Below, piece after piece: positions 7,360 through 30,482 of a stretch of DNA of 30,605 nt. Positions within the stretch are counted from its first letter, which is position 1, and each line of letters begins with the position of its first letter. A program made the position numbers and the translations under genes. The notes below the pieces were generated by a model. The model did no database searches. It was not told the origin of the DNA and was given only the letters and a program-made list of their open reading frames with translations. The DNA lies in the IMG/VR virus record IMGVR_UViG_3300029787_000147, positions 4,495 through 35,099 of that record. One strand, written 5' to 3'. Source of the stretch: a virus.

Positions 7360-7521
7360 TCAACCAACCACCTGCTCATGTCCACACGCGCAGACTGCTA
7401 CAACGATAGGGGTTCTTTCGCCACCTTCCTCGCTAGTCACACTCCAAAGGGTCATTTCATCTACCCATTCACAATCGCCACTACCTTCGTCTTTTGCACA
7501 TACTGTTACTTCTTTACTCAT
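7360..7521 (-). CDS. Small cysteine-containing protein, unknown
   Basis: 53 aa, missed by length cut-offs. The ATG overlaps the stop of the Cas4-like gene by 4 nt (ATGA), and its own stop lies 3 nt before the primase ATG, so it fills the space exactly. It has Cys at 8 and 16 and a C-terminal CACGH, so a single metal site is possible. Otherwise acidic; no family recognised. The gap-free spacing on both sides is the main reason to call it a gene. Confidence 0.6.
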   Translation of the reverse strand: MSKEVTVCAKDEGSGDCEWVDEMTLWSVTSEEGGERTPIVVAVCACGHEQVVG

Positions 7522-8369
7522 TGTATCACGTCCGGTTCTAATCCACTAAGAATCCCCTCACACGACATGGAAAAATCGCACCATTCGGGGCAAAAATAAT
7601 CATTCCACTTCATCGGCCATTGATGGGAAACTAGAGACTCTACGGTGTTGTTTAAGGATTTGGGGAATGTATTAAGTGACCTTTTTGGTACTTGCTCCAT
7701 AACAGCAACGCCACAAGTTTCTCCCAACCAAACTTGTTTGCCACGTTTCCCTATCTCATCTAACATACGTTCATCAGTACAGTCTGGAGCGATGTAAAGG
7801 AAGTGTGTGATGTTGTCATAACCAGCCTGTGTAAGCATCCTGTGATAGAACACAAGTTCTTTCCGAGTACGGCTTAGTTTGGAAGGGTTCATGTTACCAG
7901 TTTTGAGTTCTACGATAATGATACCGCCATCTGGATGACGTAAAACACCGTCAATCATACCACTCCAAATGATAGGAATAGTGCCTAGATTCTCGGTTAC
8001 AAAATCTTCATAGAGGTATCTCTTTTCTTCTACTTCTACTACATCAAGACCGCCAAGAGATGACGCTATGCCGTGAATCAACTTAGCCATTTCATCGACT
8101 CCAGTATCTCCAGCGACACCTTCTTTCTCAGCGACGGCTTGTATAACGTCCGGTCCTTCTACTAGACTTGCTTCCATCACAGAATGTATAGCAGTACCAC
8201 GAATCGCTGCCTCTCCAACAGGAGGGTTAGGAACTCCACTCATGTATCTCCACCAATACTGGCGAGGACACTTCTGATAATTCATAAAGGATGATTTACT
8301 CACTCTTAAAATAGGTAGTTCTCCTACCTTGTAAGAAGATTGTTCGACTTGTTCCGGGGTGGCGTCCAT
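7518..8369 (-). CDS. Cas4/RecB-like PD-(D/E)XK nuclease with Fe-S cysteines
   Basis: About 283 aa from the ATG at 8369 (a TTG lies one codon further up). Residues below are counted from that TTG: C35 in YQKCPRQYWW, GTAIH with H63, D141 in MIDGVL, and VELKTG with E155 and K157. C-terminal C261, C265 and C271 complete, with C35, the four-cysteine pattern of Cas4, AddB and Dna2-type nucleases that hold a [4Fe-4S] cluster. Such enzymes degrade or resect DNA ends. No cas1, cas2 or repeat array is present, so the context points to viral DNA replication or recombination rather than CRISPR adaptation. The start overlaps the preceding stop as TGATG. Confidence 0.8.
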   Translation of the reverse strand: MDATPEQVEQSSYKVGELPILRVSKSSFMNYQKCPRQYWWRYMSGVPNPPVGEAAIRGTAIHSVMEASLVEGPDVIQAVAEKEGVAGDTGVDEMAKLIHGIASSLGGLDVVEVEEKRYLYEDFVTENLGTIPIIWSGMIDGVLRHPDGGIIIVELKTGNMNPSKLSRTRKELVFYHRMLTQAGYDNITHFLYIAPDCTDERMLDEIGKRGKQVWLGETCGVAVMEQVPKRSLNTFPKSLNNTVESLVSHQWPMKWNDYFCPEWCDFSMSCEGILSGLEPDVIQ

Positions 8370-8506
8370 CAAACAACCTCCGCACCAAGAATATCTTCTA
8401 GGGTGCGGATAAGAAGTCTTCGTGGCACATCTCCCATATCGCCACCTCGCTTTAGACCTGCTATGTAACGTATAAGTCGGTCTTGCATATCAGTTCCTTC
8501 TCTCAT
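8369..8506 (-). CDS. Small basic protein, unknown
   Basis: 45 aa. It begins with ATGA overlapping the stop of the zinc-ribbon gene at 8503 and ends with TGATG overlapping the Cas4-like start, with a GGGGGAGAG ribosome site just upstream. The sequence is Arg-rich and mostly helical (DRLIRYIAGLKRGG). No family recognised. Its position between exact overlaps suggests a translationally coupled partner of the nuclease. Confidence 0.6.
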   Translation of the reverse strand: MREGTDMQDRLIRYIAGLKRGGDMGDVPRRLLIRTLEDILGAEVV

Positions 8507-8836: not shown

Positions 8837-11041
8837 TCATACCCACTGTACATCACTTAATCCATTCAAAGCATTGTAAAGAGGTTGTACGTCCCACTTC
8901 ATAACATTGTAATAAGGAAGGACTTTATCGACTACGAATTTGCTCGCTAGAGTTCTAAAGCCTACCTTAGTTATACCCTCTATATCTTGAGGTTTATCAA
9001 AGGCTACATATTTACCTTCATCGTTAATAGTCACTAGGAAGTATGAGCCAGCACCGTAACCTTTGCCTAAATGTTCGTTGGCCCACGCCGCACCAGCGGA
9101 AGGACCGGACAACACCTTATACTGTTTAAGTGATTTTTCTAGTTTTCCTTTCATACACAGTTCCTCAATCTCACATTCTCCAGATACAATATCATCAATC
9201 AACGTTGTTAAGTTCTTTGTGATAGCGACTTCGGGACGACCGGATAACATAGCACCTAGAGTTTCTTTCATGGCTTCTTTCATCACCGGAGGCATACGAG
9301 ACTGTTTCAACTCGATTCCTTTAACATAAAGACTAGGTTCATGATATTTTCCGTCAGTCCATACCGTTATACCAGCATAACGATTCTTAGCCATGATAAC
9401 CATACTGTTACACCACTTTTCAAATTCAGTAATAATAGGCGACATCTTTTCGTTGATTCTTGATAGTGCTTCTAAACCAGTATCGGGGTCAACGATTTCA
9501 CAGAACACACTGTCAGTATGACCGTAGCGAACTGTAAGCCCTTCTTCATTAGCCAACTCCTTCAATCTACCTAAAGTCTGTCTTGATGTGTACGTGATTG
9601 CTTGTGCTACATCAGGATGGTACAAACCATACTTTGAATCACCAGCCGCACCATACATAGACGCTACTAGATGCTTACAAGCATTCTGCAAAGTGTCCCA
9701 TTTCTCATGGTTATCGGGGTCATCCTTTAACATTTTCTTGTAATGATTTCTTAGGTTAGTCATCTTATCCATTTGTCGAACAAGCAACCCTTTATCTCCT
9801 TGACGGAAACAAGTACCGTTACCACAATCCTTTCCTTCGGGGTCCAGTGTGTCCCATGAGATATTATGCAATTCAGCGTTGCTATGATACATAGCCCTAA
9901 TATCTAGGATTCCCATATTGTGATAGATACCAGACTCAACCTCCATAACTTCTGCGCCGGAATACGGCCTGTAATCGAACTGTGGTTTAGTGGGAATCCT
10001 CTGGTTAAACTTCTCATCTACAAGAGCCAGTGATGTAAATAACTTAGTAACAAAGGGTGTCGAGCGAATGTCGCACTGTACGATATGTTGGATAGCGCAA
10101 TAATATTCTATTGCGTTTACCAAAGAGTTTAGTCTAGGCAGTAGTCTTACGTCCTGTCTAGCATAATGGAGATATAGAGGTAAATCACTATAATATGTAT
10201 CGTGTCCGTCTTCTAAAGCCACCTTAGAATCCTTTAAGCATTCTAATGCTACATCATCAAGACGGTAGCCCGGAAGTTTCCCATTTTTAATTTCCCATAT
10301 CTTTGAGAATCCAATCATGAGGTCTATACAATTTCGTCCTACTATTGGTTGTTCCCAATCACCAAACTTCCAACGGAAACGGCGCATAGGAGACATATTG
10401 CCCGGATTGATACCGAGTGTTCTACATCGTTCTGCTATGGTCTTGATGTCCGCACCAACCACGAACCAACCAGTAATGATGTCGGGGTCACAACGCTTCA
10501 TGTGATTGATAAAATGTTCTAACATAGTCTTCTCATCAGCGAAGCACATAGCATGAGTTTCGTATTCATAGTCTCCTACTTTGCTATATTTACCAGCCTC
10601 GTAATCAGGATGGGTAAACCAAACGTATTCTCGTTCTGTATAGGAATCATAGACTACAATAATTCTCATCTCACTTGTGTCCGGCGACCACTCGCAATCC
10701 ATATACCAGACGCGATGATTATAGTTGGGTATAGGAGGCATACCTTCGTTTATCCTATCAGTAAGCACACGATTAACAAACGGTATGTTACCTTCCCATG
10801 TCGGCCCTACTTCCTTAATAGAACGTAGTTGGTCCGGGTGCGACACAACTATTTTAGTTAAGTCTTCTCCATACAAACCTTCGTAGCCTGATTCCTTACT
10901 AACAGATTGAACCCATTGTGCAGATTCGTCGGTTACAAAAACATAAGGCCAATGGTCGTTGTCTTTGATAACTTTACGAACATCGTTTTCATCCCTATAA
11001 CGGATGATTACTTCTCGACCTTTACCTTGCTCGACAATCAT
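8837..11041 (-). CDS. polB: Family B DNA polymerase
   Basis: 734 aa from the ATG at 11041, which overlaps the upstream stop as ATGA; an in-frame ATG at 11053 is an alternative. The proofreading domain shows Exo I D115-C-E117, an Exo II region around 190-200 and Exo III YARQD (293-297). The polymerase domain has motif A D380-IRAMYHS, motif B K456-HLVASMYG and motif C YGHTDS (506-511). It should be the replicative polymerase, working with the clamp, clamp loader and primase encoded nearby. Two departures stand out: His replaces the first Asp of the usual DTD in motif C, and His replaces Pro in the motif A YPS. The catalytic D380 and D510 remain. Confidence 0.92.
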   Translation of the reverse strand: MIVEQGKGREVIIRYRDENDVRKVIKDNDHWPYVFVTDESAQWVQSVSKESGYEGLYGEDLTKIVVSHPDQLRSIKEVGPTWEGNIPFVNRVLTDRINEGMPPIPNYNHRVWYMDCEWSPDTSEMRIIVVYDSYTEREYVWFTHPDYEAGKYSKVGDYEYETHAMCFADEKTMLEHFINHMKRCDPDIITGWFVVGADIKTIAERCRTLGINPGNMSPMRRFRWKFGDWEQPIVGRNCIDLMIGFSKIWEIKNGKLPGYRLDDVALECLKDSKVALEDGHDTYYSDLPLYLHYARQDVRLLPRLNSLVNAIEYYCAIQHIVQCDIRSTPFVTKLFTSLALVDEKFNQRIPTKPQFDYRPYSGAEVMEVESGIYHNMGILDIRAMYHSNAELHNISWDTLDPEGKDCGNGTCFRQGDKGLLVRQMDKMTNLRNHYKKMLKDDPDNHEKWDTLQNACKHLVASMYGAAGDSKYGLYHPDVAQAITYTSRQTLGRLKELANEEGLTVRYGHTDSVFCEIVDPDTGLEALSRINEKMSPIITEFEKWCNSMVIMAKNRYAGITVWTDGKYHEPSLYVKGIELKQSRMPPVMKEAMKETLGAMLSGRPEVAITKNLTTLIDDIVSGECEIEELCMKGKLEKSLKQYKVLSGPSAGAAWANEHLGKGYGAGSYFLVTINDEGKYVAFDKPQDIEGITKVGFRTLASKFVVDKVLPYYNVMKWDVQPLYNALNGLSDVQWV

Positions 11042-11163
11042 CTCATCCACCATCTATCTCTCTCTTGCGTAGGCTTATAACTGTTCTTGAAGCACCTGTA
11101 ACATATACGATGAACCGGGTGTAACACAGCCCAACGCTTACATTTCTTACACAGGCCAGCCAT
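11038..11163 (-). CDS. Mini zinc-ribbon protein upstream of PolB
   Basis: 41 aa (MAGLCKKC...). Two CxxC pairs (CKKC and CYRC) make a small zinc ribbon, followed by a basic aromatic tail (RDRWWMR). The stop overlaps the PolB ATG. An in-frame start at 11283 would add 40 residues of unrelated composition and cross the TATA boxes, so the short form is preferred. No ribosome site is seen, consistent with a leaderless or nearly leaderless mRNA. Function unknown. Confidence 0.6.
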   Translation of the reverse strand: MAGLCKKCKRWAVLHPVHRICYRCFKNSYKPTQERDRWWMR

Positions 11164-11317
11164 AGCAATCACATTTTTTTCCAAAAAATTATAGAAAACA
11201 AGTATATAAAGCGGGAACGGTGGGAGCGGAGGATAAACCCCCTGCCCATCCCGCGATGTTCTGCGGGAGAGAATGACCCTCATATACCGTTATTACCGGG
11301 CAAACCGCGAAATAAAC
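11164..11317 (-). promoter_or_regulatory. Intergenic promoter region for zinc-ribbon/PolB operon
   Basis: 154 nt without a convincing gene. On the minus strand there are two TATA-like boxes: CTATAATTT (about 11186-11194), about 26 nt from the ATG at 11163, and CTTTATATAC (about 11202-11211), which would give a leader of about 17 nt. Further upstream CCCGC/GCGGG (about 11249-11266) can form a 5-bp hairpin with an 8-nt loop, a possible operator or termination structure. The 20-nt accessory-region element is absent. Confidence 0.5.
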
Positions 11318-11608
11318 TTATTCCTTTCTTCGACCTCTACCGCGTGTTTCAATACCAAACTTTAGCAACCAATCGCGTACAGCCATAGGTGTGATACCCT
11401 GCTCCGAGGCGATGTCTGCCATAGACCGTCCTTCGACTAAGTATGCGTTTCTAAGCCAGTCTTCGCTACGGTATTCCTTAGTGTGCTTCATCAGCCTACC
11501 GCTGAATCCCCAATCACCTAAAGATTGTTCTACTGTCCCATCTTCGGGATGAATAGTAATGTTAATCGTATTTCCTTCGTCGTCTGTCAAATGTATTTCT
11601 GCTTTCAT
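11318..11608 (-). CDS. Small helix-turn-helix DNA-binding protein
   Basis: 96 aa from the ATG at 11608; a GTG at 11617 is the alternative, but a GGAG site stands 9-10 nt before the ATG. The N-terminal half is a short beta-rich acidic stretch. The C-terminal half is a helix-turn-helix of the sigma-region-4/transposase type (SMADIASEQGITPMAVRDWL at about 67-86) with a very basic tail (RGRGRRKE). Probably a regulator. It follows the clamp gene directly, so it would be made with the replication proteins. Confidence 0.6.
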   Translation of the reverse strand: MKAEIHLTDDEGNTINITIHPEDGTVEQSLGDWGFSGRLMKHTKEYRSEDWLRNAYLVEGRSMADIASEQGITPMAVRDWLLKFGIETRGRGRRKE

Positions 11609-12427: not shown

Positions 12428-13384
12428 TCACTCCCAATTCAAGAAAGGTAGACCAGCCCAATTTACTTTGCCGTCTTTAACAGATAGAATAGTATGAGTC
12501 TCGCCTAGATGTTCCATGTTGTGACCCTTCATCTCTTCTATGATTGCCTTTACTGCCCATTCACCGTCGGCTAAGGATTTGTCGCCCTTAACACCAGCCG
12601 CAGGGTCAGCCTTCTTCATGTAACGAGTTAAGAATATTTGTTGCGAGAAACAACGCATAGTTCCCTTCTCCCATTCTGGACGTTCACCAACACTCATTAG
12701 AACTTTGCCACCAGAGCCGTTATCCACATACTCTTGAATAGGTTTCAAGTGGAATGTAAAGAACACCTTCGGCACATCTAATCCATGAACTCGCTGAATA
12801 GTATCTCGGAACAGTTTGTTACGAATACGCCATTCTGCTTGATTGAATCTATCTCCATCTTCGGGATTAACCGGATTCTTAGAGCGATTCTGCAATACAT
12901 AAGTCATAGCCTGTTCGCACCACTTGAGGAAAGTAGAGCCACCATCAAAGATGATACCAGCATATTCTTCTCCAGCCTTGACACGTTCCGCTACGATATT
13001 AGTGAACCAAGATACCTTATCAATAAGAGCCGTATAGTTCACAGAATTATCCTCATTGAAGATAGAGTCATCCATCTCATCGAAGAGGGGAAGCACTATG
13101 ATATTGTCCTTTCCGGGGTACAGATAATCAACAGTCTGTTTGGCGGAATTGTCCACATCGAAGATAGCCACTTTCTTTCCAGCCTCAATCTCCGGCCTAA
13201 GTAAGTCAAGAGCGAGTCCAGTCTTAGCAGTATTCTCACGACCAACAAGAGCCATACGAACAGGTCTATACTTTGCTTGGTTGTTGTCAAACAAGTTATT
13301 GTAGTAGTCTGCATCGTAAGCCGTCTTCATGGCTGGATTAGGAGTAGCGGCAGGGGCCGCAGTTGCGGATTGACCCCAACTCAT
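12428..13384 (-). CDS. RecA/Sak4-like P-loop ATPase
   Basis: 318 aa from the ATG at 13384, which overlaps the ssDNA-binding protein stop (ATGA). Walker A is GRENTAKT at about 48-55, with Ala where most P-loops have Gly. Walker B is YAGIIFDGG with D147. A conserved-looking strand VFFTFHLKP follows. The pattern matches short RecA-fold ATPases of viruses (Sak4/AAA_24 type) that work with a single-strand-binding protein in annealing or strand exchange. Direct coupling to the OB-fold protein upstream supports a recombination or replication role. Confidence 0.7.
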   Translation of the reverse strand: MSWGQSATAAPAATPNPAMKTAYDADYYNNLFDNNQAKYRPVRMALVGRENTAKTGLALDLLRPEIEAGKKVAIFDVDNSAKQTVDYLYPGKDNIIVLPLFDEMDDSIFNEDNSVNYTALIDKVSWFTNIVAERVKAGEEYAGIIFDGGSTFLKWCEQAMTYVLQNRSKNPVNPEDGDRFNQAEWRIRNKLFRDTIQRVHGLDVPKVFFTFHLKPIQEYVDNGSGGKVLMSVGERPEWEKGTMRCFSQQIFLTRYMKKADPAAGVKGDKSLADGEWAVKAIIEEMKGHNMEHLGETHTILSVKDGKVNWAGLPFLNWE

Positions 13385-14595
13385 GCGTCCCACCCATCAT
13401 CCGTAGAATCCACTGGTACGTCTGCCATAGGAGCAATCGCATCGAAGGCCCACCAACCATTTACAGATAGTCGGTATTCATCTTCTTTGGTCTTCCAAGG
13501 CTGTGCAACCACAAGCACCTTAGTACCAACAGCGAAGTCAATCATACTCTCTTGGGAAGCAGGGATATAGATGTCCACTACTGGAGCCATTGAAGTAATA
13601 TCTAAGTCAGCAACTACTAGGTTGAAGCCACCATTATCACGGGGTTCAATACTAATAACTTCTGTAAGTACACCAATGAGTCTGTCCCACCATCCGTCAG
13701 TTCCATGATTAGTCTCATAGAAAGGACCGATAGCATCAAGATTCTTCAATAGGTCATCACCAAGCATTTTGCCCATCAGGCCACCATCTTCGCTACGGAA
13801 GGGAGGTAGAGGGAATTCAGATGCCAATGAATCATCACGGTTGAATACTGATACGCCAGCCTTAGCATAACCAACACCGTTGCGACCCATACGAACCGCA
13901 TAAGTTCCGGGTATAAAGGTAGGAGGAGCATCTTCGGCTACAACACCAGAAGCCTTGATTGTAACAGGCCCGTCAGCAGTAGCAAATATCATGGTTCTCT
14001 CTAATTCCTTGGTAGGTCTAGCAGAGCCATACTTGAAGTTAGCATCACCAGATGGGAATGTCGGAGACTTACTATCCCATACTATGTAATAGTAAGTAGA
14101 TTCATCTAATTGCTTGATATTCTTAGGCAACTCGGTAACTGAATCTTCATCGTAGTCTGCTTCAAAGGCAACTTTGTTTCGTAGAGATGGGTTGATAGCA
14201 CGACTGTAAGTACCGTCGTAATTATCAGTAAAGATTACTACTTTCCCTTGAGTTACAAGAGATTCGCGAGCATCTTCGCCAGCCATCTTTAGAGTATTGT
14301 CCATCTTACGGTATAGTAATTGACCCCAATCTTTGTATCTAGGTACACTAATAAACATACCTTTTAGGGATTCAGCACCGCTTCGCTTTAACTTAGCACT
14401 CTCGGATGCTATTTGACGTGCCGCTACTCGTAGAGCAAACACTCCGCATTCCTCGTCATTCTTTCCAGCGTTACGCCATGCCGCGCCCTGCTCCTCAAGT
14501 ACGGTTTCAGCCCGTACCTTTAGAGTGGACACTTCCACACCTACGTTCGCCGCTACATTCTTCATCATATCATCATTCAATGTCATGTCTTTCAT
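13381..14595 (-). CDS. OB-fold single-stranded DNA-binding protein (RPA-like)
   Basis: 404 aa. The N-terminal 60 residues are helical, the middle is mixed, and the C-terminal part (about 310-385) has the five-strand pattern of an OB fold (NLVVADLD, VDIYIP, KVLVVAQPW, YRLSVNGWWAFD). A short acidic tail (VDSTDDGWDA) resembles the protein-interaction tails of SSB proteins. Archaeal RPA-type proteins of this size coat ssDNA at forks. It heads the operon with the RecA-like ATPase and clamp. GGAG lies 2 nt before this ATG and 10 nt before a second ATG at 14586, so either start is possible. Confidence 0.55.
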   Translation of the reverse strand: MKDMTLNDDMMKNVAANVGVEVSTLKVRAETVLEEQGAAWRNAGKNDEECGVFALRVAARQIASESAKLKRSGAESLKGMFISVPRYKDWGQLLYRKMDNTLKMAGEDARESLVTQGKVVIFTDNYDGTYSRAINPSLRNKVAFEADYDEDSVTELPKNIKQLDESTYYYIVWDSKSPTFPSGDANFKYGSARPTKELERTMIFATADGPVTIKASGVVAEDAPPTFIPGTYAVRMGRNGVGYAKAGVSVFNRDDSLASEFPLPPFRSEDGGLMGKMLGDDLLKNLDAIGPFYETNHGTDGWWDRLIGVLTEVISIEPRDNGGFNLVVADLDITSMAPVVDIYIPASQESMIDFAVGTKVLVVAQPWKTKEDEYRLSVNGWWAFDAIAPMADVPVDSTDDGWDA

Positions 14596-21354: not shown

Positions 21355-22224
21355 CTACTCACCTCCGAATAAATCAAAATAATTAACCGCATCCTTAGCG
21401 TCAAGTCTTTCGATTGCGAACATATCACTCACTTTTAGTTTTCTTGTGGCTGAATTTACTCTTGAATCACTAATACGTTCCTTAGTCCGATTAGTGAACA
21501 TCAACGCACTACCTAATACACAAGCATCTTCCATCGTTATAAAGCACCCCATAAAGGTGTTCATATCTACGGAGCAGAAAGTACCGTCTACGTTGATAGC
21601 AGGTACAGGCTGAACAAAAAGATTATCCCACTCTAAACCAACATTAACTCTAGCAACGAAAGTGAGAATAGGTTTTTTGGATTTAGTATATTGTCGTTGC
21701 GTTATAATTACTTCGTGGTTGCCTTCTTTGTTAGGTATAACAGCCCTAATACAAATCCTCATACCAATCTGCTCCTTTTCTTCGTGTGGGAATGGATTGG
21801 TTGTTATTCTAGCACTATATCCTCTTTCTTTAATTGTTTGCACTAAACCAACCAACCAAGCATAATCTTCAAACTTTTCTTTTGTCACGGCTTTAACTTG
21901 AACTCCAACCGGACCTCTCCACAGGGTTACAAAAACACCTTCTTGGTTTTCTATCAATTCAGTCATCAATTCCGAGAACGGAGTTTTCAAATCCATCATA
22001 GCATCATAGACATCACGGCGATACGGTGGTGGAGATGGATGACACAAAGCGCAGACCAAATCATACACTGTTCTTCTATCAGTAATATGCCCCATGAGTC
22101 TATCGTCATTATGCAACAACGATAAGTCACAAGACGAAAGATTGCCTACCCTACCAGTGGTAAAATACTCAACCTTGATGTCTCTAGTATCGATTACTAA
22201 GGGTGCTAGATTATCTGTGTTCAT
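21355..22224 (-). CDS. Unknown 289-aa protein
   Basis: Alternating strands and helices with no recognisable catalytic motif. A central segment (VFVTLWRGPVGVQVKAV, then YSARITTNPFPH, then IGMRICIRAVIP) looks like a beta-rich domain. The C-terminus ends in an aromatic tail, AVNYFDLFGGE, that weakly resembles a clamp-binding peptide but lacks the leading Gln. Its start overlaps the previous gene by 14 nt; it ends the operon driven from copy 2 of the promoter element. Function unknown. Confidence 0.5.
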   Translation of the reverse strand: MNTDNLAPLVIDTRDIKVEYFTTGRVGNLSSCDLSLLHNDDRLMGHITDRRTVYDLVCALCHPSPPPYRRDVYDAMMDLKTPFSELMTELIENQEGVFVTLWRGPVGVQVKAVTKEKFEDYAWLVGLVQTIKERGYSARITTNPFPHEEKEQIGMRICIRAVIPNKEGNHEVIITQRQYTKSKKPILTFVARVNVGLEWDNLFVQPVPAINVDGTFCSVDMNTFMGCFITMEDACVLGSALMFTNRTKERISDSRVNSATRKLKVSDMFAIERLDAKDAVNYFDLFGGE

Positions 22225-22474
22225 TCTTCATCACCTCAAATCCATTTCTTTCTAAACATTCATCACAACAATGAGTACCATCGGGATGACAAATGACGTA
22301 CTTCTCGTAAAGCGCAAGTTCTTCACGCAACCGCTCGACTTCTGCTAGGAGTCTAGTAGCACAGGCTTTGAGTCTCCGAGAATCTTCGACTAGGCTATCT
22401 TGACCCTTTATCCATTCTTCTTCACAAATTACAATGCTTTCAATCAGTTTTTCGTATTTGTCTGTGTCAATCAT
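22211..22474 (-). CDS. MIDTDKYE-start protein with coiled coil and zinc-type cysteines
   Basis: 87 aa from the ATG at 22474; GGAGAGGAG stands upstream. It begins MIDTDKYE, shared at DNA level with three other genes here. A coiled-coil-like helix follows (RLLAEVERLREELALYEKY). The C-terminus has CHPDGTHCCDEC, which could bind zinc. The start overlaps the end of the upstream gene by 8 nt, so the shared start codes in one frame while ending the neighbour in another. Unknown role. Confidence 0.6.
   Translation of the reverse strand: MIDTDKYEKLIESIVICEEEWIKGQDSLVEDSRRLKACATRLLAEVERLREELALYEKYVICHPDGTHCCDECLERNGFEVMKNEHR
22453..22474 (-). repeat. 22-nt start cassette, copy 2
   Basis: First 22 nt of the 22211-22474 gene, identical to copy 1, including all third codon positions. 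Confidence 0.8.
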
Positions 22475-22730
22475 ATTCAAACAACTCCTCTCCGTCCCAA
22501 TACATTACACACTCTTCAGTAGGTTCGTGCCACCCACCTTGACCATCGGGCTTGTAGTTGTAATAATGGTAAAGTGTCCACTCATAAGTAGGGTGTGCTA
22601 CAATACTCTCCTTGAATGACTCAACTGCTTCTTCAAGGCCATCATAATCCATAGCGTCTCCATGTTTACCTTCACGGTCGTAGTATCTTACCAACCAATC
22701 TTGTTCTCCGTATTTGTCTGTGTCAATCAT
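22467..22730 (-). CDS. MIDTDKY-start acidic protein, unknown
   Basis: 87 aa. MIDTDKYGE start, then a sequence rich in Tyr, Trp, Glu and Asp (VRYYDREGKHGD, TLYHYYNYKPDG, YWDGEELFEYD). No cysteine pair or enzymatic motif. GAGAGGGGG stands just upstream of the ATG. Beyond the first seven residues it is not similar to the other proteins that share this start. Confidence 0.55.
   Translation of the reverse strand: MIDTDKYGEQDWLVRYYDREGKHGDAMDYDGLEEAVESFKESIVAHPTYEWTLYHYYNYKPDGQGGWHEPTEECVMYWDGEELFEYD
22709..22730 (-). repeat. 22-nt start cassette, copy 1
   Basis: First 22 nt of the 22467-22730 gene, from ATGATTGACACAGAC on. Identical over all 22 nt to copy 2 at 22453-22474. Confidence 0.8.
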
Positions 22731-22732
22731 TT

Positions 22733-23014
22733 TTACAACCCCCTCTCTTCTTTTATCTTTCTTAAAACTCTAGCAAATGCCTTCCACTTCTTGTTGTATT
22801 CCTTTGTGAATTGAGAACTGCTAGGTGGCTTGACTCCAACCCAAGGAGCGATGCCCAAAACAACGGCCTCAAAAGTCCTAGTTTGAATACCACCCTCGCC
22901 CTCTTCTGTACATCTAGGACATAGTACATATCCTTCTTCATCCGGTAGTGTGTCCTCCTTAGATATAGCCGTAAACTTCTCAAAGCAACCGTCACAAGTC
23001 ATTGTTATACCCAT
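22733..23014 (-). CDS. Zinc-ribbon protein, unknown
   Basis: 93 aa. An N-terminal zinc ribbon is formed by CDGC (7-10) and CPRC (32-35). The C-terminal half is basic and partly helical (YNKKWKAFARVLRKIKEERGL), suited to nucleic-acid binding. GAGGGG lies 9 nt before the ATG, and the stop of the upstream winged-helix gene is 2 nt away. Could be a transcription-related adaptor; no family recognised. Confidence 0.6.
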   Translation of the reverse strand: MGITMTCDGCFEKFTAISKEDTLPDEEGYVLCPRCTEEGEGGIQTRTFEAVVLGIAPWVGVKPPSSSQFTKEYNKKWKAFARVLRKIKEERGL

Positions 23015-23016
23015 GA

Positions 23017-23307
23017 TTAAGCACCCCTCTCAATGTATTGAACTGCATCGTCGATGCTTACAAGTGCGTATGTTTGAACATAACTTCTCATGTCGTTGTT
23101 TTTACGGATTCTGCCCATCTTCTCAATGCCTCTCCATCCGTGAAGTATTTGTGCAATCGTTCTTGCTGACGGTACTTGAAAATTCTTAGAGATAGTCCTC
23201 TCTCTAATACCATCGTTCATTCTTTCAACGATTTGGTTTGCGGTCAAAGTGCCATTATAGTTTCTTAGTACGAATAAAATCGCACGTCGTAGTCTCATGT
23301 GTCTCAT
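23017..23307 (-). CDS. Winged-helix protein, leaderless operon head
   Basis: 96 aa. Basic start (MRHMRLRR), helix AILFVLRNYNGTLTANQIVERM, recognition helix SARTIAQILHGWRGIEKMGRI, then a possible wing and a C-terminal helix. It shares the layout of the other four winged-helix proteins here. The ATG is 25 nt from a TATA box that follows copy 2 of the 20-nt element, so the mRNA is probably leaderless. A candidate autoregulator of that element (inference). Confidence 0.6.
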   Translation of the reverse strand: MRHMRLRRAILFVLRNYNGTLTANQIVERMNDGIRERTISKNFQVPSARTIAQILHGWRGIEKMGRIRKNNDMRSYVQTYALVSIDDAVQYIERGA

Positions 23308-23325
23308 AATTAATCATCCTCCTTC

Positions 23326-23361
23326 AAGTATATAAACATTCCGATAGCGGGTTTGTAAGGT
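23326..23361 (-). promoter_or_regulatory. Promoter with 20-nt element, copy 2
   Basis: Minus strand: ACCTTACAAACCCGCTATCG (23342-23361), spacer GAATG, then TTTATATAC. The TATA centre is 25 nt from the ATG at 23307. Drives the operon 23307 to 21355. Confidence 0.8.
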
Positions 23362-23489
23362 TACTCTTCCTCATCGGGCCAGCCACAATAATCGCACCAA
23401 GCAGTAGGAGTATCATCTATGTCTCCTTCTATGACAAGAGTAGCATCGCATCTAGGACAACTTCTATTCCTAGCATATCCCCAACCCAT
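23361..23489 (-). CDS. Small zinc-ribbon protein
   Basis: 42 aa from the ATG at 23489, with GGAGG 9 nt upstream (an earlier ATG at 23498 directly abuts that site). CPRC and CDYC pairs form a zinc ribbon; the tail is acidic (DEEE). It is the last gene of its operon; its stop codon touches copy 2 of the promoter element. Too short for many gene callers. Confidence 0.6.
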   Translation of the reverse strand: MGWGYARNRSCPRCDATLVIEGDIDDTPTAWCDYCGWPDEEE

Positions 23490-23490
23490 T

Positions 23491-23760
23491 TCATTCATCC
23501 TCCATTATTAGTTTCAACATCACTAAGTAGCCAATCAAATCATCAACAATATCCATATCACTCTCAATGCTATCGTTACCTCTAGCCAATCTTGATAGTT
23601 TGTCATCGATGCGTACTCTAACTCCGGCTTGTGAATCTAACTTTGAGAACAAACGAATAGGATTGTTCACACTGTCTCCATACTGCTGATTCTTAGCAAT
23701 CAACAATTGACCTATGCGAGTTAGTAAATTAGTTACTTTGGCAGGGAAAGGGTCACTCAT
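23491..23760 (-). CDS. MazG-like all-alpha protein
   Basis: 89 aa from the ATG at 23760, overlapping the upstream stop (ATGA). The order K-x3-YG followed by VRIDDKLSRLARG and a last helix DIVDDLIGYLVML matches MazG-like members of the all-alpha NTP pyrophosphohydrolase superfamily found in phages. In that family the acidic residues bind Mg2+ and the enzymes clear modified or alarmone nucleotides. Here they are D/E-poor before the YG motif, so catalysis is uncertain. Confidence 0.6.
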   Translation of the reverse strand: MSDPFPAKVTNLLTRIGQLLIAKNQQYGDSVNNPIRLFSKLDSQAGVRVRIDDKLSRLARGNDSIESDMDIVDDLIGYLVMLKLIMEDE

Positions 23761-24257
23761 GCTATCGCCCCCTTCCACCATGAAGGAGCAGGTCGTCCTT
23801 TCTGCCACTTAGCAAATGTCTTGGAATGGTAGTATGCTCGATATGCTTTGACTGCATCTGCATCTTTGAACTCATCCGGCATACATTGAGCAAAAGGAGT
23901 CAATGGGCCATCGGGAATCAAGTGGGCCATGTTAGATAGTATCTCGATACCATCAGCACAAAAATGAGTCTTGTCGAACCTCTTGGTGTATTCTTCTGCT
24001 AACGCGGCGGCATGATAACAAGCCCAAATGAAATTGTCTCTTGAATCTCCCACAAAACGAGTCGCGGGATGGTTGTGATAACCGCCCTTGAGAGGCGTAC
24101 CTTTCTTAGTAAGAGGCATCTGCTCTGGTGTAGCACCATGTCTAATAACACTAGAACCTAATTGTTGGTAAAGTTCCACGACCATTTTAGGCAGGTGCTT
24201 GTCGCAATACATCTTGGCTGATACAATTGGGTCTTCATCTAGTACAAATATGTTCAT
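23757..24257 (-). CDS. Conserved viral protein of the MNIFVLD..DKH family
   Basis: 166 aa. The N-terminus MNIFVLDEDPIVSA, then CDKHLPKMVVE, and later a YHAAALAEEYTKRFDKTH helix with H and P residues (HNHPATRFV) match a family common in marine phages and usually annotated as hypothetical. Conserved His and acidic residues suggest a metal-dependent or nucleic-acid role, but I cannot name the reaction. It is in an operon with the MazG-like gene, and in phages such genes often sit among nucleotide-metabolism genes. Confidence 0.55.
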   Translation of the reverse strand: MNIFVLDEDPIVSAKMYCDKHLPKMVVELYQQLGSSVIRHGATPEQMPLTKKGTPLKGGYHNHPATRFVGDSRDNFIWACYHAAALAEEYTKRFDKTHFCADGIEILSNMAHLIPDGPLTPFAQCMPDEFKDADAVKAYRAYYHSKTFAKWQKGRPAPSWWKGAIA

Positions 24258-24260
24258 TGG

Positions 24261-24488
24261 TCATTCCTCCTCGGTGCTGTCAGAAGTGGCTACTGCCTCC
24301 TCCGACAACGCTTTTGCCACAGACTGCTTGTTATTAAACCCTTCGGTAGCGGCCTTGTAAAGTCCTATATGTGCTATCATAACATCTCTTATGCAACGCA
24401 TACAGACGTAATCTCCACCAAAGACTAATGTTAGAACATTACCTTGGTTACAAAGACAACATGAGTTATATCGTAATCCTGTTTCCAT
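24261..24488 (-). CDS. Zinc-binding small protein
   Basis: 75 aa from the ATG at 24488, which overlaps the upstream stop as TAATG. CCLC near residue 11 and CMRC near 30 make a zinc ribbon; the tail is helical and acidic. An in-frame start 21 codons upstream is rejected because it lies inside the previous gene. Function unknown. Confidence 0.55.
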   Translation of the reverse strand: METGLRYNSCCLCNQGNVLTLVFGGDYVCMRCIRDVMIAHIGLYKAATEGFNNKQSVAKALSEEAVATSDSTEEE

Positions 24489-24673
24489 TAGTCGTACACC
24501 TCCAATTCTTCGGGGTCTACTTCCCATGAACAAGAACTGTAAGAAGTACACTCACAAGCCTCGCAATACAATTCAACAGCGACATAGGGCATATTGGTTC
24601 CTTGAGAACCATAATCGGTCATACGATATACTACAAAGTTACAAAGACTTCTATCTTCTGCACAATCACTCAT
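24488..24673 (-). CDS. Cysteine-rich small protein, unknown
   Basis: 61 aa with Cys at 4, 11, 37, 40, 42 and 48 (CEACEC, then SSC). The irregular spacing could bind zinc or form a metal knuckle. The C-terminus is acidic. Start overlaps the 16-aa frame by ATGA, and its stop overlaps the next ATG. Confidence 0.5.
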   Translation of the reverse strand: MSDCAEDRSLCNFVVYRMTDYGSQGTNMPYVAVELYCEACECTSYSSCSWEVDPEELEVYD

Positions 24674-24720
24674 TCTTCCTCGCCTCCTTCAACCATACAT
24701 ACTTCGTCTGTGTAGTTCAT
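24670..24720 (-). CDS. 16-aa overlapping mini-frame
   Basis: Frame of 16 residues whose ATG overlaps the upstream stop and whose stop overlaps the next ATG, both as ATGA, with a GGAGG site for the next gene inside it. Without it the two neighbours would be separated by 43 nt in an otherwise gap-free operon. It may be a real microprotein or only a translational bridge. Confidence 0.3.
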   Translation of the reverse strand: MNYTDEVCMVEGGEEE

Positions 24721-25031
24721 TCAATCCACCCGCCTTCATCGCCTCTAATTTGGTATGCTTCATCAGTATAAGACATCATTATATCTCGTAGGAGTTCAAG
24801 GTTGGGCTTCTCGACAGGTAAAACTTGACCTGCCTTTTTATCATTGTAATATACTACATCATCTATCTCATCAAGTAGTCCACGCAACCGCTGGACTTCT
24901 GTAAGCAGTTCATTGATACCGTCTTTGACTGCCATGCTATCAGCGAGCAAATCATCAACACCTATTTCATCGGAGTTTATTATTCTGTCAATCACTTCGT
25001 CCAGTCCTTCGTATTTGTCTGTGTTAATCAT
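24717..25031 (-). CDS. MINTDKYE-start coiled-coil protein
   Basis: 104 aa. It starts MINTDKYEG from copy 3 of the 22-nt start cassette. A long helical segment with a heptad-like pattern (INELLTEVQRLRGLLDEI) suggests a coiled coil; the rest is acidic. It is the protein most similar in design to 22211-22474 (start motif, then VQRLR/VERLR coiled coil), so these two may be diverged paralogs. Function unknown. Confidence 0.55.
   Translation of the reverse strand: MINTDKYEGLDEVIDRIINSDEIGVDDLLADSMAVKDGINELLTEVQRLRGLLDEIDDVVYYNDKKAGQVLPVEKPNLELLRDIMMSYTDEAYQIRGDEGGWIE
25010..25031 (-). repeat. 22-nt start cassette, copy 3
   Basis: First 22 nt of the 24717-25031 gene; one mismatch to copies 1 and 2, changing Asp to Asn at codon 3. 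Confidence 0.75.
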
Positions 25032-25345
25032 TCTGCATCACCTTGTTCTTTCAGCCATTCTTGATAGCCAATGTATTCAGCCTCATCCCATCCTTCACAT
25101 AGTAAGGAGTCAGCCTCAATCGCAGATATTCCTGTATCTTCCCACACTTGCGAGCCATCATCATTGAAGTCAACGACAACCCAAAGTGTGCCTGTGCCTC
25201 GGTCTGTATCGTATGCCATGTGTGATTTAGTCCAACCTCGGTCTGTGAACCACTCATCTGCCATCTCATCCCAAGCGTGTCCTGTGCGCTCAAGTCTTTC
25301 TTCATCAAGTTCCATGTATTCTTCGTATCTGTCTGTGTCAATCAT
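25028..25345 (-). CDS. MIDTDRYE-start acidic protein, unknown
   Basis: 105 aa, rich in Asp, Glu and Trp. It starts MIDTDRYEE from copy 4 of the start cassette. The middle has a strand pattern, TLWVVVDFNDDG, and the end is helical (EAEYIGYQEWLKEQ). ATGA overlaps on both sides. No family recognised. Confidence 0.55.
   Translation of the reverse strand: MIDTDRYEEYMELDEERLERTGHAWDEMADEWFTDRGWTKSHMAYDTDRGTGTLWVVVDFNDDGSQVWEDTGISAIEADSLLCEGWDEAEYIGYQEWLKEQGDAE
25324..25345 (-). repeat. 22-nt start cassette, copy 4
   Basis: First 22 nt of the 25028-25345 gene; one mismatch to copies 1 and 2, changing Lys to Arg at codon 6. Confidence 0.75.
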
Positions 25346-25536
25346 TCAATCATCTCCTTCAATTCTTTTACCTTCTCATCATACAATAGAAGTGCCTTTT
25401 GTTCATCTCCGACTTCCCATCCTTCGACTAACTCTTTCGTGCTATTAGATGTATGTCGGACAATATCAATAGCCCAAACAAACTTAGCAAGTCTGTGCAT
25501 CTCAACTTCTTTATCTCCAACCATTCCACTTTGCAT
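25342..25536 (-). CDS. Small helical protein, unknown
   Basis: 64 aa from the ATG at 25536, 2 nt after the preceding stop; an ATG at 25551 inside the preceding gene is an alternative. All-helical pattern (MHRLAKFVWAIDIVRH, DEQKALLLYDEKVKELKEM). No motif recognised. Ends with ATGA overlap to the cassette-start gene. Confidence 0.45.
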   Translation of the reverse strand: MQSGMVGDKEVEMHRLAKFVWAIDIVRHTSNSTKELVEGWEVGDEQKALLLYDEKVKELKEMIE

Positions 25537-25538
25537 AA

Positions 25539-26039
25539 TTACCACAACCATCCTAAGATTCTTGTGATTAGACCAGCCTTTCTAGGTGAGTTATAACAGG
25601 CTTCTAGTGCTTGTAGTTGAATTTCTAGTGACTCGACTCTATCTTCTAACTCATCGTACTCTAAACCTTCTTTGATAATATCATAATCAATATAGTCATC
25701 AATATCAAAGTTACTAAATACTGATTCCGCAATATCATCTTCGATGTTGTATCTGATGCTATCATAGTCTAAGTGTTCATTGACTTGTTCAAGAATGTCA
25801 TCCTCTATTTCATATCTAATATCGGAAGTGTCGATGTAATCACTAATTTCAACGTAATCGGACAAATCCATGTTGCTCATAAAATTATCAATGACACCCT
25901 CTACACCAGCCTCGACGTATTCTGTAAAATCAGTATTCTCAAGATGACCTAAGACTGATGCCTCAATCATCCCACTATCTATTTCACTCATCACACCTTC
26001 AATTATCGCGCTTTCATCAAACTCTATTTCTGCTTCCAT
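25539..26039 (-). CDS. Acidic repeat protein, leaderless operon head
   Basis: 166 aa from the ATG at 26039. That start lies 26 nt from the TATA box of promoter copy 3, so it is preferred to the ATG at 26054. The protein is extremely acidic and contains imperfect repeats of the form (S)DIRYEIEDDILEQV / DSIRYNIEDDIAESV with DY-I steps between. It ends with an amphipathic tail, GLITRILGWLW. It could be a DNA mimic or a helical scaffold; both are inference from composition. Confidence 0.55.
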   Translation of the reverse strand: MEAEIEFDESAIIEGVMSEIDSGMIEASVLGHLENTDFTEYVEAGVEGVIDNFMSNMDLSDYVEISDYIDTSDIRYEIEDDILEQVNEHLDYDSIRYNIEDDIAESVFSNFDIDDYIDYDIIKEGLEYDELEDRVESLEIQLQALEACYNSPRKAGLITRILGWLW

Positions 26040-26060
26040 ATCTATTCCTCTCATTCATTC

Positions 26061-26093
26061 CTTATAACTCTTTTCATAGCGGGTTCGTAAGGT
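26061..26093 (-). promoter_or_regulatory. Promoter with 20-nt element, copy 3
   Basis: Minus strand: ACCTTACGAACCCGCTATG (26075-26093), purine-rich AAAAGAG, then TTATAAGG. The TATA centre is about 26 nt from the ATG at 26039. The element contains the last codons (NLTNPL) of the upstream gene. Confidence 0.8.
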
Positions 26094-26715
26094 TTTCCTC
26101 CACTTTCAAAGAGTATTTTTCAGTTCCTTCATCCCAATGATATTGCTCATAAAGACTCATGTTATCTATCAAATCTGCAACGAAATCATTCATACACGCA
26201 TCAGTATATCCTTCATCGTATTCCTTTCTTCCTAACCATGTATCAATCATATGTTTAGCAGTATGTTTGAGTTCTTGAGTTTCATGATAGGAGTCCCTTG
26301 TGATAGAATCAAGAGAGAAATTTTCCCTATCTCCTGTTTCTTCCCTAAGAGTATCATTTACTCTTCGTAATGCCCACCATGCTAGAGCGTGGTCACATTC
26401 TTCATTTGATTTAGTGCTGACATTACAAGTAAAATCTGCATCTGCCAACTGCTCAACAAACTCAAGAGTGATAGGCCAATAACCTTCACTTTCTCCATAA
26501 TTTGTTGAAAAGATTCTATCATATAGAGCAAACCGTCTGTATGCTTCTTTGATTGAAACACCATAGGTTATTTGCTCTCCTGTTTTGTGAATATGTCCAA
26601 CACCAGTGGTCATGCACATCAGACCCATACCGGCAAACGAAGGTATAAACTTCCTTTGGGCCTCGGTAAACTGTTCAAACTTTTCTTCGTCCTTTACTCC
26701 AATTATTAACGGCAT
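26074..26715 (-). CDS. Unknown 213-aa protein
   Basis: Mainly helical, with a strand-rich start (MPLIIGVKDEEKF). The middle has ECDHALAWWALRRV and ETQELKHTAKHMIDTW helices, in which His and acidic residues recur, as in some all-alpha hydrolases, but no signature is certain. Its ATG overlaps the upstream stop (TAATG). Its last six codons are formed by promoter copy 3. Confidence 0.5.
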   Translation of the reverse strand: MPLIIGVKDEEKFEQFTEAQRKFIPSFAGMGLMCMTTGVGHIHKTGEQITYGVSIKEAYRRFALYDRIFSTNYGESEGYWPITLEFVEQLADADFTCNVSTKSNEECDHALAWWALRRVNDTLREETGDRENFSLDSITRDSYHETQELKHTAKHMIDTWLGRKEYDEGYTDACMNDFVADLIDNMSLYEQYHWDEGTEKYSLKVEENLTNPL

Positions 26716-26955: not shown

Positions 26956-27396
26956 TCATTCTTCCTCCAGTCTCTCTGCTGTTAAATTGTCCTCTACTTC
27001 CACGCTTATATAGTTTTCGGTGGCGGGTTCGTAAGGTGTCCAATTATTTTCTTTGTTTAAATTAGAATCGTGTTTATGGCAAAACCAAACTGTACAACCC
27101 GAAGAATGAAAATTAATCCAACAAGCGACTGATACTCTACAAGAAAAATAATCTTGGTTTTGACCTACACTCTCATTCAAATTTTCTAAATACGATTTGA
27201 AAGTAGGGAATCTTAGATGTAAACTAGGTATCTCATTAGAATTATAAACACCTGTTATGGCCCTAAAATACTTGAAGTGTTTACCAATCTTTCTTTTTTC
27301 TTTTTGTATTAGTTTGGTTACAAAAACAGGGTCGTCAAACGGACCTTCCCATTTTTCATCTTCTAAATCTAGTGTGTATGTTATTTTCTCATTCAT
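26956..27396 (-). CDS. Unknown protein ending in PYEPAT segment
   Basis: 146 aa from the ATG at 27396, with GAGGAGG 9 nt upstream (a nearer ATG at 27405 abuts the site). Strand-rich; four Cys (CRVSVACW, then GCTVWFCH) and His could bind metal but the spacing is not classical. About 38 codons from the end lies promoter copy 4, read here as PYEPATE. Function unknown. Confidence 0.5.
   Translation of the reverse strand: MNEKITYTLDLEDEKWEGPFDDPVFVTKLIQKEKRKIGKHFKYFRAITGVYNSNEIPSLHLRFPTFKSYLENLNESVGQNQDYFSCRVSVACWINFHSSGCTVWFCHKHDSNLNKENNWTPYEPATENYISVEVEDNLTAERLEEE
27004..27037 (-). promoter_or_regulatory. Promoter with 20-nt element, copy 4
   Basis: Minus strand: ACCTTACGAACCCGCCACCG (27018-27037), AAAAC, then TATATAAGC. 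Predicted start of transcription near 26985, giving a 30-nt leader with GGAGG before the ATG at 26954. Lies inside the upstream gene, where it encodes PYEPATE. Confidence 0.75.
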
Positions 27397-28174: not shown

Positions 28175-28473
28175 TCAATCACCTCGCGAGCCATTTTCTT
28201 TTCTGCCCTTTCGTAAGCATAATCCCATAAATCTTCTACCGAATCACTTAAGATGTCTCTAGCATTATCATAATAGTCGGTCCAAACTAATCTTCCTCTA
28301 CCTTTTGATTTCCTGTATAAATCATCTTCTGAAAATCCAACTACCGGCCTACATTGACCGTCATTATATTGGATTACGCCAATCCAGATAGTAGTATTAC
28401 CATTTACCGATTGAGGTAAATCATCATTCGCTTCAAAAATTTCTTCTGCTAATTTGTCCATGTCTTTCGTCAT
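28171..28473 (-). CDS. Unknown protein, leaderless operon head
   Basis: 100 aa. A strand pair (TTIWIGVIQYNDGQCRPVVGF) is followed by helices with an acidic and basic pattern (SVEDLWDYAYERAEKK). The ATG is about 27 nt from the TATA box of promoter copy 5, so it is probably leaderless. No family recognised. Confidence 0.55.
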   Translation of the reverse strand: MTKDMDKLAEEIFEANDDLPQSVNGNTTIWIGVIQYNDGQCRPVVGFSEDDLYRKSKGRGRLVWTDYYDNARDILSDSVEDLWDYAYERAEKKMAREVIE

Positions 28474-28489
28474 ATTTAGTCCTCTCCTT

Positions 28490-28738
28490 TCAACTATTTA
28501 TACCTTCCGATGGCGGGTTCGTAAGGTCAGCAATACCATGCCACTCACTACCTATACCAAACAGTTTCTCCATCCATTCATAATCTCTCAATTGTCTCGC
28601 TCCCATGTATTCTTCCATGAAGATAAGTTCACTATCTCCATCGAGAAACAGGCTTTTTCCATCGGTCCAATTTATGACCGTATAGAGTCGCTTTGGTCCG
28701 TATTCAATTTCATAGGTTGCATCATCATAGTCTTTCAT
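28490..28738 (-). CDS. Unknown small protein ending in promoter copy 5
   Basis: 82 aa, acidic and strand-rich at first (RLYTVINWTDGKSLFLDGDS), helical later (QLRDYEWMEKLFGI). GGAGG stands 10 nt before the ATG, after the stop of the upstream gene. Its final ten codons are the promoter element and TATA box of the next operon. Confidence 0.5.
   Translation of the reverse strand: MKDYDDATYEIEYGPKRLYTVINWTDGKSLFLDGDSELIFMEEYMGARQLRDYEWMEKLFGIGSEWHGIADLTNPPSEGINS
28493..28527 (-). promoter_or_regulatory. Promoter with 20-nt element, copy 5
   Basis: Minus strand: ACCTTACGAACCCGCCATCG (28508-28527), GAAGG, then TATAAATAG. TATA centre about 27 nt from the ATG at 28473. Lies in the last codons of the 28490-28738 gene (LTNPPSEG). 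Confidence 0.8.
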
Positions 28739-29246: not shown

Positions 29247-29456
29247 TTATTCATTCCTCCTTAGTGTATTAAAAGCCTCTTCCAATTTATCCGTCGCATA
29301 ATCCATAGCATAGTCGTAGCCATCTTCTTCTATCATCTCATCAAGAAAATTATATTGCTCAATAATTTTCTCACAGGTTTCCCAATTGTTCATGAAATTC
29401 CATTCGCCAATCTCAATAGCCAATTCGACCCATCTTGTTTTGTTGTCTGTCATCAT
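29247..29456 (-). CDS. Small helical protein, leaderless operon head
   Basis: 69 aa, acidic and helical (WVELAIEIGEWNFMNNW, MIEEDGYDYAMDYATDKLEEAF). The ATG is 25 nt from the TATA of promoter copy 6, so translation is probably leaderless. No motif recognised. Confidence 0.55.
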   Translation of the reverse strand: MMTDNKTRWVELAIEIGEWNFMNNWETCEKIIEQYNFLDEMIEEDGYDYAMDYATDKLEEAFNTLRRNE

Positions 29457-29458
29457 AT

Positions 29459-29836
29459 TTACACCTCATCTCCATCGTTTATAACGCTTTCGGTAGCGGG
29501 TTCGTAAGGTTCTTCTACAAGCATAGATAAGCCTATTGAGTAAAGTTTATCCATTACTTCTTGAATCATGTTGTTATACTCATAAGGGACATTGTATCTA
29601 TTACCCCACGAATCATATTTTCTGTGTAATATATCGTGTAATTCTCTTCTCGCTTTATCTATTCCCACCTTTAGAGATATGATTTCGTCTTTGGTTGGAT
29701 TTAGATTTATCATAGTTTTAACATCATCTTCTGAACACCAATTACAAACAGGACAAGTAGAAAACCAATCGCCACCCCAAGCATCAGCACAAAATGGCTT
29801 TTCGATAATTTCAGTATCACAAATATCACAATTCAT
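29459..29836 (-). CDS. Zinc-ribbon protein ending in PYEPAT segment
   Basis: 125 aa from the ATG at 29836, overlapping the upstream stop (TGATG). CDIC at the N-terminus and CPVCNWC near residue 29 form a zinc ribbon; a helical part follows (LKVGIDKARRELHDILHRKYD). The C-terminus contains promoter copy 6 as PYEPATESV and an acidic tail. Function unknown. Confidence 0.55.
   Translation of the reverse strand: MNCDICDTEIIEKPFCADAWGGDWFSTCPVCNWCSEDDVKTMINLNPTKDEIISLKVGIDKARRELHDILHRKYDSWGNRYNVPYEYNNMIQEVMDKLYSIGLSMLVEEPYEPATESVINDGDEV
29477..29510 (-). promoter_or_regulatory. Promoter with 20-nt element, copy 6
   Basis: Minus strand: ACCTTACGAACCCGCTACCG (29491-29510), AAAGCG, then TTATAAAC. TATA centre 25 nt from the ATG at 29456. 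Lies inside the 29459-29836 gene, read as PYEPATES. Confidence 0.8.
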
Positions 29837-30217: not shown

Positions 30218-30307
30218 CTACTTGCCTCCATAAAATACCAATACTGGTGAATTGCGTTTAATAAATTCCGTTAGGAATGTTGTTCCGGTTGTGCTTTCTT
30301 TGCTCAT
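30218..30307 (-). CDS. 29-aa leaderless peptide heading the last operon
   Basis: Frame of 29 residues (starts MSKESTTGTTF, ends VFYGGK) whose ATG lies 26 nt from the TATA box of promoter copy 7, the position of a leaderless start. Its last codons contain the GGAGG site of the next gene. It may be a peptide in its own right or a leader that brings ribosomes to the next start. Confidence 0.45.
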   Translation of the reverse strand: MSKESTTGTTFLTEFIKRNSPVLVFYGGK

Positions 30308-30326
30308 ACATAACCATTATTCAACA

Positions 30327-30361
30327 ACTATATAAAGGTTTCGATGGCGGGTTTGTAAGGT
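30327..30361 (-). promoter_or_regulatory. Promoter with 20-nt element, copy 7
   Basis: Minus strand: ACCTTACAAACCCGCCATCG (30342-30361), AAACC, then TTTATATAG. The TATA centre is about 26 nt from the ATG at 30307. This is the only copy not overlapping a coding end, because no gene lies upstream. Confidence 0.8.
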
Positions 30362-30482
30362 TTTTTCGGCCATATTGTTTTTGTAACCGCAATAAAAAAT
30401 AAAAAAACTTACGACCCCCTTCTCAGTCCTCCACCGCTACCGGATGAGGGTGGGCCAAAAAAGGGGCCGTAAAAAGTGAATA
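30362..30482. other. Non-coding stretch between promoter 7 and tRNA-like element
   Basis: No frame with a start, ribosome site or coding pattern was found. It holds an A-rich run (about 30390-30410) and a GC-rich part (about 30411-30465). A weak match to the 20-nt element in the opposite orientation (about 30407-30420) lacks a TATA box. Confidence 0.5.

Follow-up and report, generated by a model that had tools for sequence, protein, structure and literature searches.

Why do four small genes of one virus begin with nearly the same 22 nucleotides (nt) when they had seemed otherwise unrelated? The question is raised by a minus-strand gene cluster in a stretch of 30,605 nt (positions 4,495 to 35,099 of the IMG/VR record IMGVR_UViG_3300029787_000147), called the window below; the full virus record has 37,047 bases and was searched whole. 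The genes are named A, B, C and D here, with starts at 22474, 22730, 25031 and 25345, and their common start, the cassette, is referred to as seam 1. Many cassette genes also contain an internal block with nearly fixed codons, DAPLLLAEVKRLRE, which was unnoticed in the first-pass annotation of the window and is referred to as seam 2. We consider it likely that both seams serve as joints of shared homology in a modular system of small genes, carried by marine viruses with a B-family DNA polymerase (PolB).

The pattern ATGATTGACACAGACAAATA matches the window four times, always on the minus strand and each time at a gene start. The cassettes of gene A (22453..22474, consensus ATGATTGACACAGACAAATACG) and gene B (22709..22730) are identical and have no mismatches to the pattern, while those of gene C (25010..25031, GAC to AAC) and gene D (25324..25345, AAA to AGA) have one each. 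A and B therefore differ by one base from either C or D, the latter two differ from each other by two, and the four starts are identical at 20-22 of 22 positions. None of 100 dinucleotide shuffles of the window gave any match, which excludes a chance origin, and the 37,047-base record holds no copy beyond the four. The near-identical start reported in the first-pass annotation is thus real, and so is its overlap with the upstream stop in three cases: the TGA of the preceding gene occupies positions 2-4 in gene C (stop of gene D, ATGA) and gene D (stop of gene 25342-25551, ATGA) and positions 6-8 in gene A (stop of gene B). The gene preceding B ends with a TAA just upstream of the cassette.

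To follow the cassette in other viruses, viral contigs were scanned with only the peptide MI(D/N)TDKY fixed and the codons left free, which returned at least 119 matching stretches. Among the 83 non-redundant genes starting with MIDTDKYEGH, codons 2, 4 and 8 are the same in 83/83 and codon 7 in 82/83; a single codon accounts for 94-99% of cases at positions 5, 6, 7 and 9 and for 89% at position 3, whereas His10 is free (CAC/CAT 50/33). In homologous pairs, identity over codons 2-7 stays at 0.91-0.95 at every level of body divergence, with codon identity in the bodies of the same pairs going from about 0.9 down to 0.6. Since codons 2-9 are nearly fixed, codon 10 is free and codon identity is flat with respect to body divergence, the constraint acts on DNA. 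Third positions are kept beyond what protein selection would do, as had been proposed from the window alone: in the 83 genes silent sites are as fixed as the coding ones. Free synonymous variation, named beforehand as the finding that would speak against this proposal, was not found within the family among the matches listed by the codon-blind scan; outside the family the same peptide is written with other codons.

A codon-blind scan for the internal block gave 85 stretches in all and, from these, 96 non-redundant genes. These genes were selected by amino acids, and their codons are nearly fixed: GAC in 91/96, GCA in 92/96, CCA in 91/96, GAA in 94/96, AAG in 93/96 and GTC in 90/96 (background 0.25). 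A cassette start at up to two mismatches is present in 79 of the 96. In the window, seam 2 is found in gene A (22315..22351, minus strand, CTCCTAGCAGAAGTCGAGCGGTTGCGTGAAGAACTTG) and gene C (24872..24908, minus strand, CTGCTTACAGAAGTCCAGCGGTTGCGTGGACTACTTG), within a common block of 57 nt (22315-22371 and 24872-24928) which is 74% identical. Because both hold this block, genes A and C are not unrelated, and the description of the four genes as unrelated fails for this pair.

Comparison of the contigs has shown both seams to behave as recombination breakpoints, with the segments between seams 1 and 2 (module X) and after seam 2 (module Y) assorting nearly at random. Among 284 distinct cassette starts, pooled at up to four mismatches, 28 pairs were alike in the 60 nt upstream and unrelated downstream, 99 pairs were unrelated upstream and alike downstream, and only 5 were alike on both sides. 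In one direction the identity profile over the cassette drops from about 0.9 to about 0.27, in the other it climbs, and seam 2 profiles have the same crossover. The 179 genes with both seams form 108 X-homologous and 94 Y-homologous pairs. Both modules are common to only 2 pairs, in line with random assortment (permutation mean 0.6). In the control, ordinary small open reading frames (ORFs) of the same loci, the C half was common to 312 of the 409 pairs sharing the N half (about 75%). For 26 cassette genes, tblastn picked out a homologue that has a different start; about ten of these look clear by eye, and some of the 26 rest on internal codons or moved starts. Cassette swaps on homologous bodies of 70-90% identity were seen in pairs of contigs such as L049/L028, L236/L045 and L050/L086. 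Two ideas of the first-pass annotation gain support here: a mobile 5' module recruiting new bodies, from homologous bodies with and without the cassette, and recombination between starts (proposed there as gene conversion), from breakpoints falling at the cassette. Judged from the contigs, an assembly artefact is unlikely, as identical arrays occur in different metagenomes (L022/L035, L007/L074 and L009/L048/L088) and the joints are short (20-40 nt).

We propose that a typical gene would be laid out as seam 1, module X, seam 2 and module Y, with the end of Y running into the next seam 1. Seam 1, at 22-29 nt, bears the upstream gene's stop (TGA at 2-4 or 6-8) together with the next start, and therefore an exchange there would leave both intact; an exchange at seam 2 would stay in frame. 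Homologous or annealing recombination by viral or host enzymes in mixed infection could accomplish this, candidate enzymes being such as the PD-(D/E)XK exonuclease-like protein (7518-8372) and the AAA_24 ATPase (12428-13393) encoded in the window. Repeated exchange, or selection for exchangeability, would keep the seam DNA uniform. Our guess is that the products are accessory proteins acting on the host. We speculate further, and with some doubt, that this may be a dedicated combinatorial gene-assembly system of archaeal viruses, in which X and Y modules from a pool common to the whole population continually give rise to new small proteins directed against host defences and the two standard joints are kept for recombination itself.

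Alternatively, seam 1 could be primarily a translational or regulatory element at the 5' end of the mRNA, such as the site of an RNA-binding regulator or an initiation enhancer, at which breakpoints are merely tolerated. Several features fit this reading, also raised in the first-pass annotation. The conserved stretch begins exactly at the ATG and fades near nt 29; each occurrence of the 14-nt core at up to one mismatch (134/134) starts an ORF of at least 30 amino acids, and neither strand had a copy anywhere else; 228 of 273 cassettes include the stop of the ORF before them (positions 2-4 in 197, 6-8 in 31), an overlap suggestive of translational coupling; and ordinary genes have a mild conservation of 5' codons. 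However, seam 2 is equally fixed far from the start, the Shine-Dalgarno region is variable, quite different starts precede homologous bodies, the cassette folds no better than shuffles, and 38 regions contain no antisense copy of the core. We therefore regard a primarily translational role as unlikely. The 5' effect in ordinary genes is only weak, and the internal block is left unexplained. The cassette may still contain a translation signal that works alongside exchange, but such a signal cannot account for that block.

It is still less probable that the cassette genes are a single recently duplicated family with fast-diverging middles, in which the start is just the oldest conserved part and no special exchange occurs. 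In its favour, seam 2 or a PW motif is present in most cassette genes, and of five cassette genes used as queries, two gave matches to PHROG 1273 (small phage proteins, a family without name or assigned function) at E-values of 1e-6 and 1e-5. The random assortment of X and Y refutes such a family for most genes, though, and the single-family reading is hard to reconcile with sharp breakpoints where near-identical DNA gives way to unrelated DNA, with codons 2-9 being fixed next to a free codon 10, or with homologous bodies that lack the cassette. As MIDTDKY is the N terminus of many different bodies, the peptide might also be functional itself, serving as a targeting, degradation or partner tag with its codons kept through recent copying. 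Recoded cassettes should then be common, and among the matches listed by the codon-blind scan they are found only outside the family; silent sites are no more variable than coding ones, and MNEEEKY and further N termini take its place on the same bodies. We find this very improbable.

Several points weigh against the two seams being homology joints. Ordinary orthologues also keep early codons better than later ones (0.56 vs 0.43 at 45-60% protein identity), so that some translational constraint on seam 1 is likely. About a quarter of the non-redundant cassette genes are classed as lacking both seam 2 and the near-start PW motif. The evidence comes throughout from comparison of metagenome contigs, recombination not being directly observed, and the breakpoint tests pooled starts with up to four mismatches. 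Genomes with a single copy have more synonymous changes per cassette (0.56 vs 0.11), a difference in the direction predicted by homogenisation through exchange and not significant, and copy number was accordingly dropped as a determinant of cassette drift. A further prediction of homogenisation, concordance of variants within a genome, was seen only at a single site (position 9, p = 0.001).

Gene A (22211..22474, minus strand) codes for 87 amino acids comprising the cassette, module X, seam 2 (LLAEVERLREEL) and module Y; gene C (24717..25031, minus strand) has the same plan in 104 amino acids, with seam 2 as LLTEVQRLRGLL. Gene B (22467..22730, minus strand, 87 amino acids) consists of the cassette and a body for which relatives were searched and none found. 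Gene D (25028..25345, minus strand, 105 amino acids) joins the cassette to a body with a 67% identical homologue in L246 (IMGVR_UViG_3300002483_000015). The two proteins start differently, with MNEEEKYEQYMEL in L246 and MIDTDRYEEYMEL in gene D, and at the DNA level the homologue begins with ATGAATGAAGAAGAGAAATACGAACAATACATGGAACT where gene D has ATGATTGACACAGACAGATACGAAGAATACATGGAACT. Pfam and PHROG searches with genes A-D gave nothing reliable and no PHROG match at 1e-3. The co-chaperonin-like look of a cassette-gene body in L021 was likewise unsupported by Pfam or PHROG.

The four genes lie in two variable slots on the minus strand. Slot 1 (22225..22732) contains genes A and B between the conserved genes 22733-23014 and 21355-22224; in the closest relatives, whose PolB is 91-94% identical to that of the window, other, unrelated genes are found at the same place. 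Slot 2 (24258..25538), with genes C and D, is flanked by the conserved genes 25539-26054 and 23757-24257 and holds fewer or different genes in close relatives. The conserved gene 21355-22224 (minus strand, start 22224) itself begins with ATGAACACAGATAA, which equals the cassette without TTG and with a single C to T substitution; a cassette-type gene in L022 has a comparable form. In L177, a close relative of the window virus, a slot gene (10967-11370) is flanked by direct repeats GGGGGTTGTAAGAATGA, one at its own start and the other at the start of the next gene, an arrangement suggestive of the use of another stop/start joint.

The system is not confined to this virus. In the 50 records searched whole, which were picked because they matched, 1-7 copies occur per record (50/50), clustered and on one strand in each cluster; a few single matches among them are outside the family. 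PolB was found in 43/51 records. Eleven extracted PolBs are 25-78% identical to each other, that of the window being 25-29% identical to the others, and the best annotated matches are from haloviruses at about 24% identity. In five records (G013, G021, G025, G031 and G036) PolB matches come in two separate pieces, which may be compared with the split PolB of Aoguangviridae. The genes reported for magroviruses (PMC10160649) include those for a DNA glycosylase and an ERCC4 nuclease besides PolB. All three have counterparts in the window, the glycosylase as a pyrimidine-dimer glycosylase-like gene; judged from gene content, the window has the set expected for Magrovirales (these three functions and a clamp-loader-like ATPase). 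No MCM match exceeded the Pfam cut-off in these records. The carriers are mostly PolB-bearing magrovirus-like viruses, and these marine viruses probably infect archaea. A single scan of genome_contigs found one cluster and five further matches, all single-copy. The cluster, six cassette genes, is on the 9 kb contig NZMJ01000078.1 (L128/L194), binned in a metagenome-assembled genome of 'Maricaulis' and probably a misbinned virus contig; a host origin of the cassette was rejected for this reason. Annotated phages yielded no convincing start cassette, and tblastn of cassette genes against annotated phage proteins gave weak matches.

One of the closest known parallels is provided by the boundary sequences put forward as recombination joints of phage mosaics, which likewise place a short shared sequence at gene borders with differing genes on either side. 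Our loci have such a short conserved border sequence, with homologous DNA on one side and non-homologous DNA on the other. Unlike in those phages, one start recurs across many viruses with up to seven copies per record, and the joint is coding and has an in-frame internal partner. Boundary sequences were reported to be missing at most mosaic borders (PMC3029335). The Start-Associated Sequences of Cluster K mycobacteriophages resemble the cassette in being repeated and tied to gene starts, mostly in one orientation, but precede the start codon by 3-7 bp and occupy the ribosome-binding position (PMC3203893), whereas the cassette starts at the ATG and is coding. Integron cassettes depend on a structured inverted-repeat site, and the cassette has no such folding; in diversity-generating retroelements changes are at scattered positions, while modules here differ wholesale. 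The section on genome organisation in the magrovirus account (PMC10160649) makes no mention of such a gene system, and our literature search, with limited coverage of subscription papers, found no description of a two-joint system of this kind.

Overall, the system is real and widespread, and represents mosaicism of a known sort with an unusual internal joint. Whether phage mosaicism arises via short conserved boundary sequences or via illegitimate joining is an old question. Here the boundary sequences can be seen and counted, they recur, and one is internal to a reading frame, which makes the joint model testable by comparison and experiment. With protein halves assorting almost at random, the loci offer an unusually clear example of genes shuffled in combination, which would supply widespread marine viruses with new small proteins.

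A 60-nt repeat was also observed in the window in six copies (23303-23362, 26035-26094, 26979-27038, 28469-28528, 29452-29511 and 30303-30362), each just upstream of a minus-strand gene. Its coding-strand sequence is approximately AACCTTACGAACCCGC..TCGGAA...TTTATATA and resembles a TATA-box promoter with a conserved upstream element. The cassette genes are located within the transcription units which this putative promoter would start.
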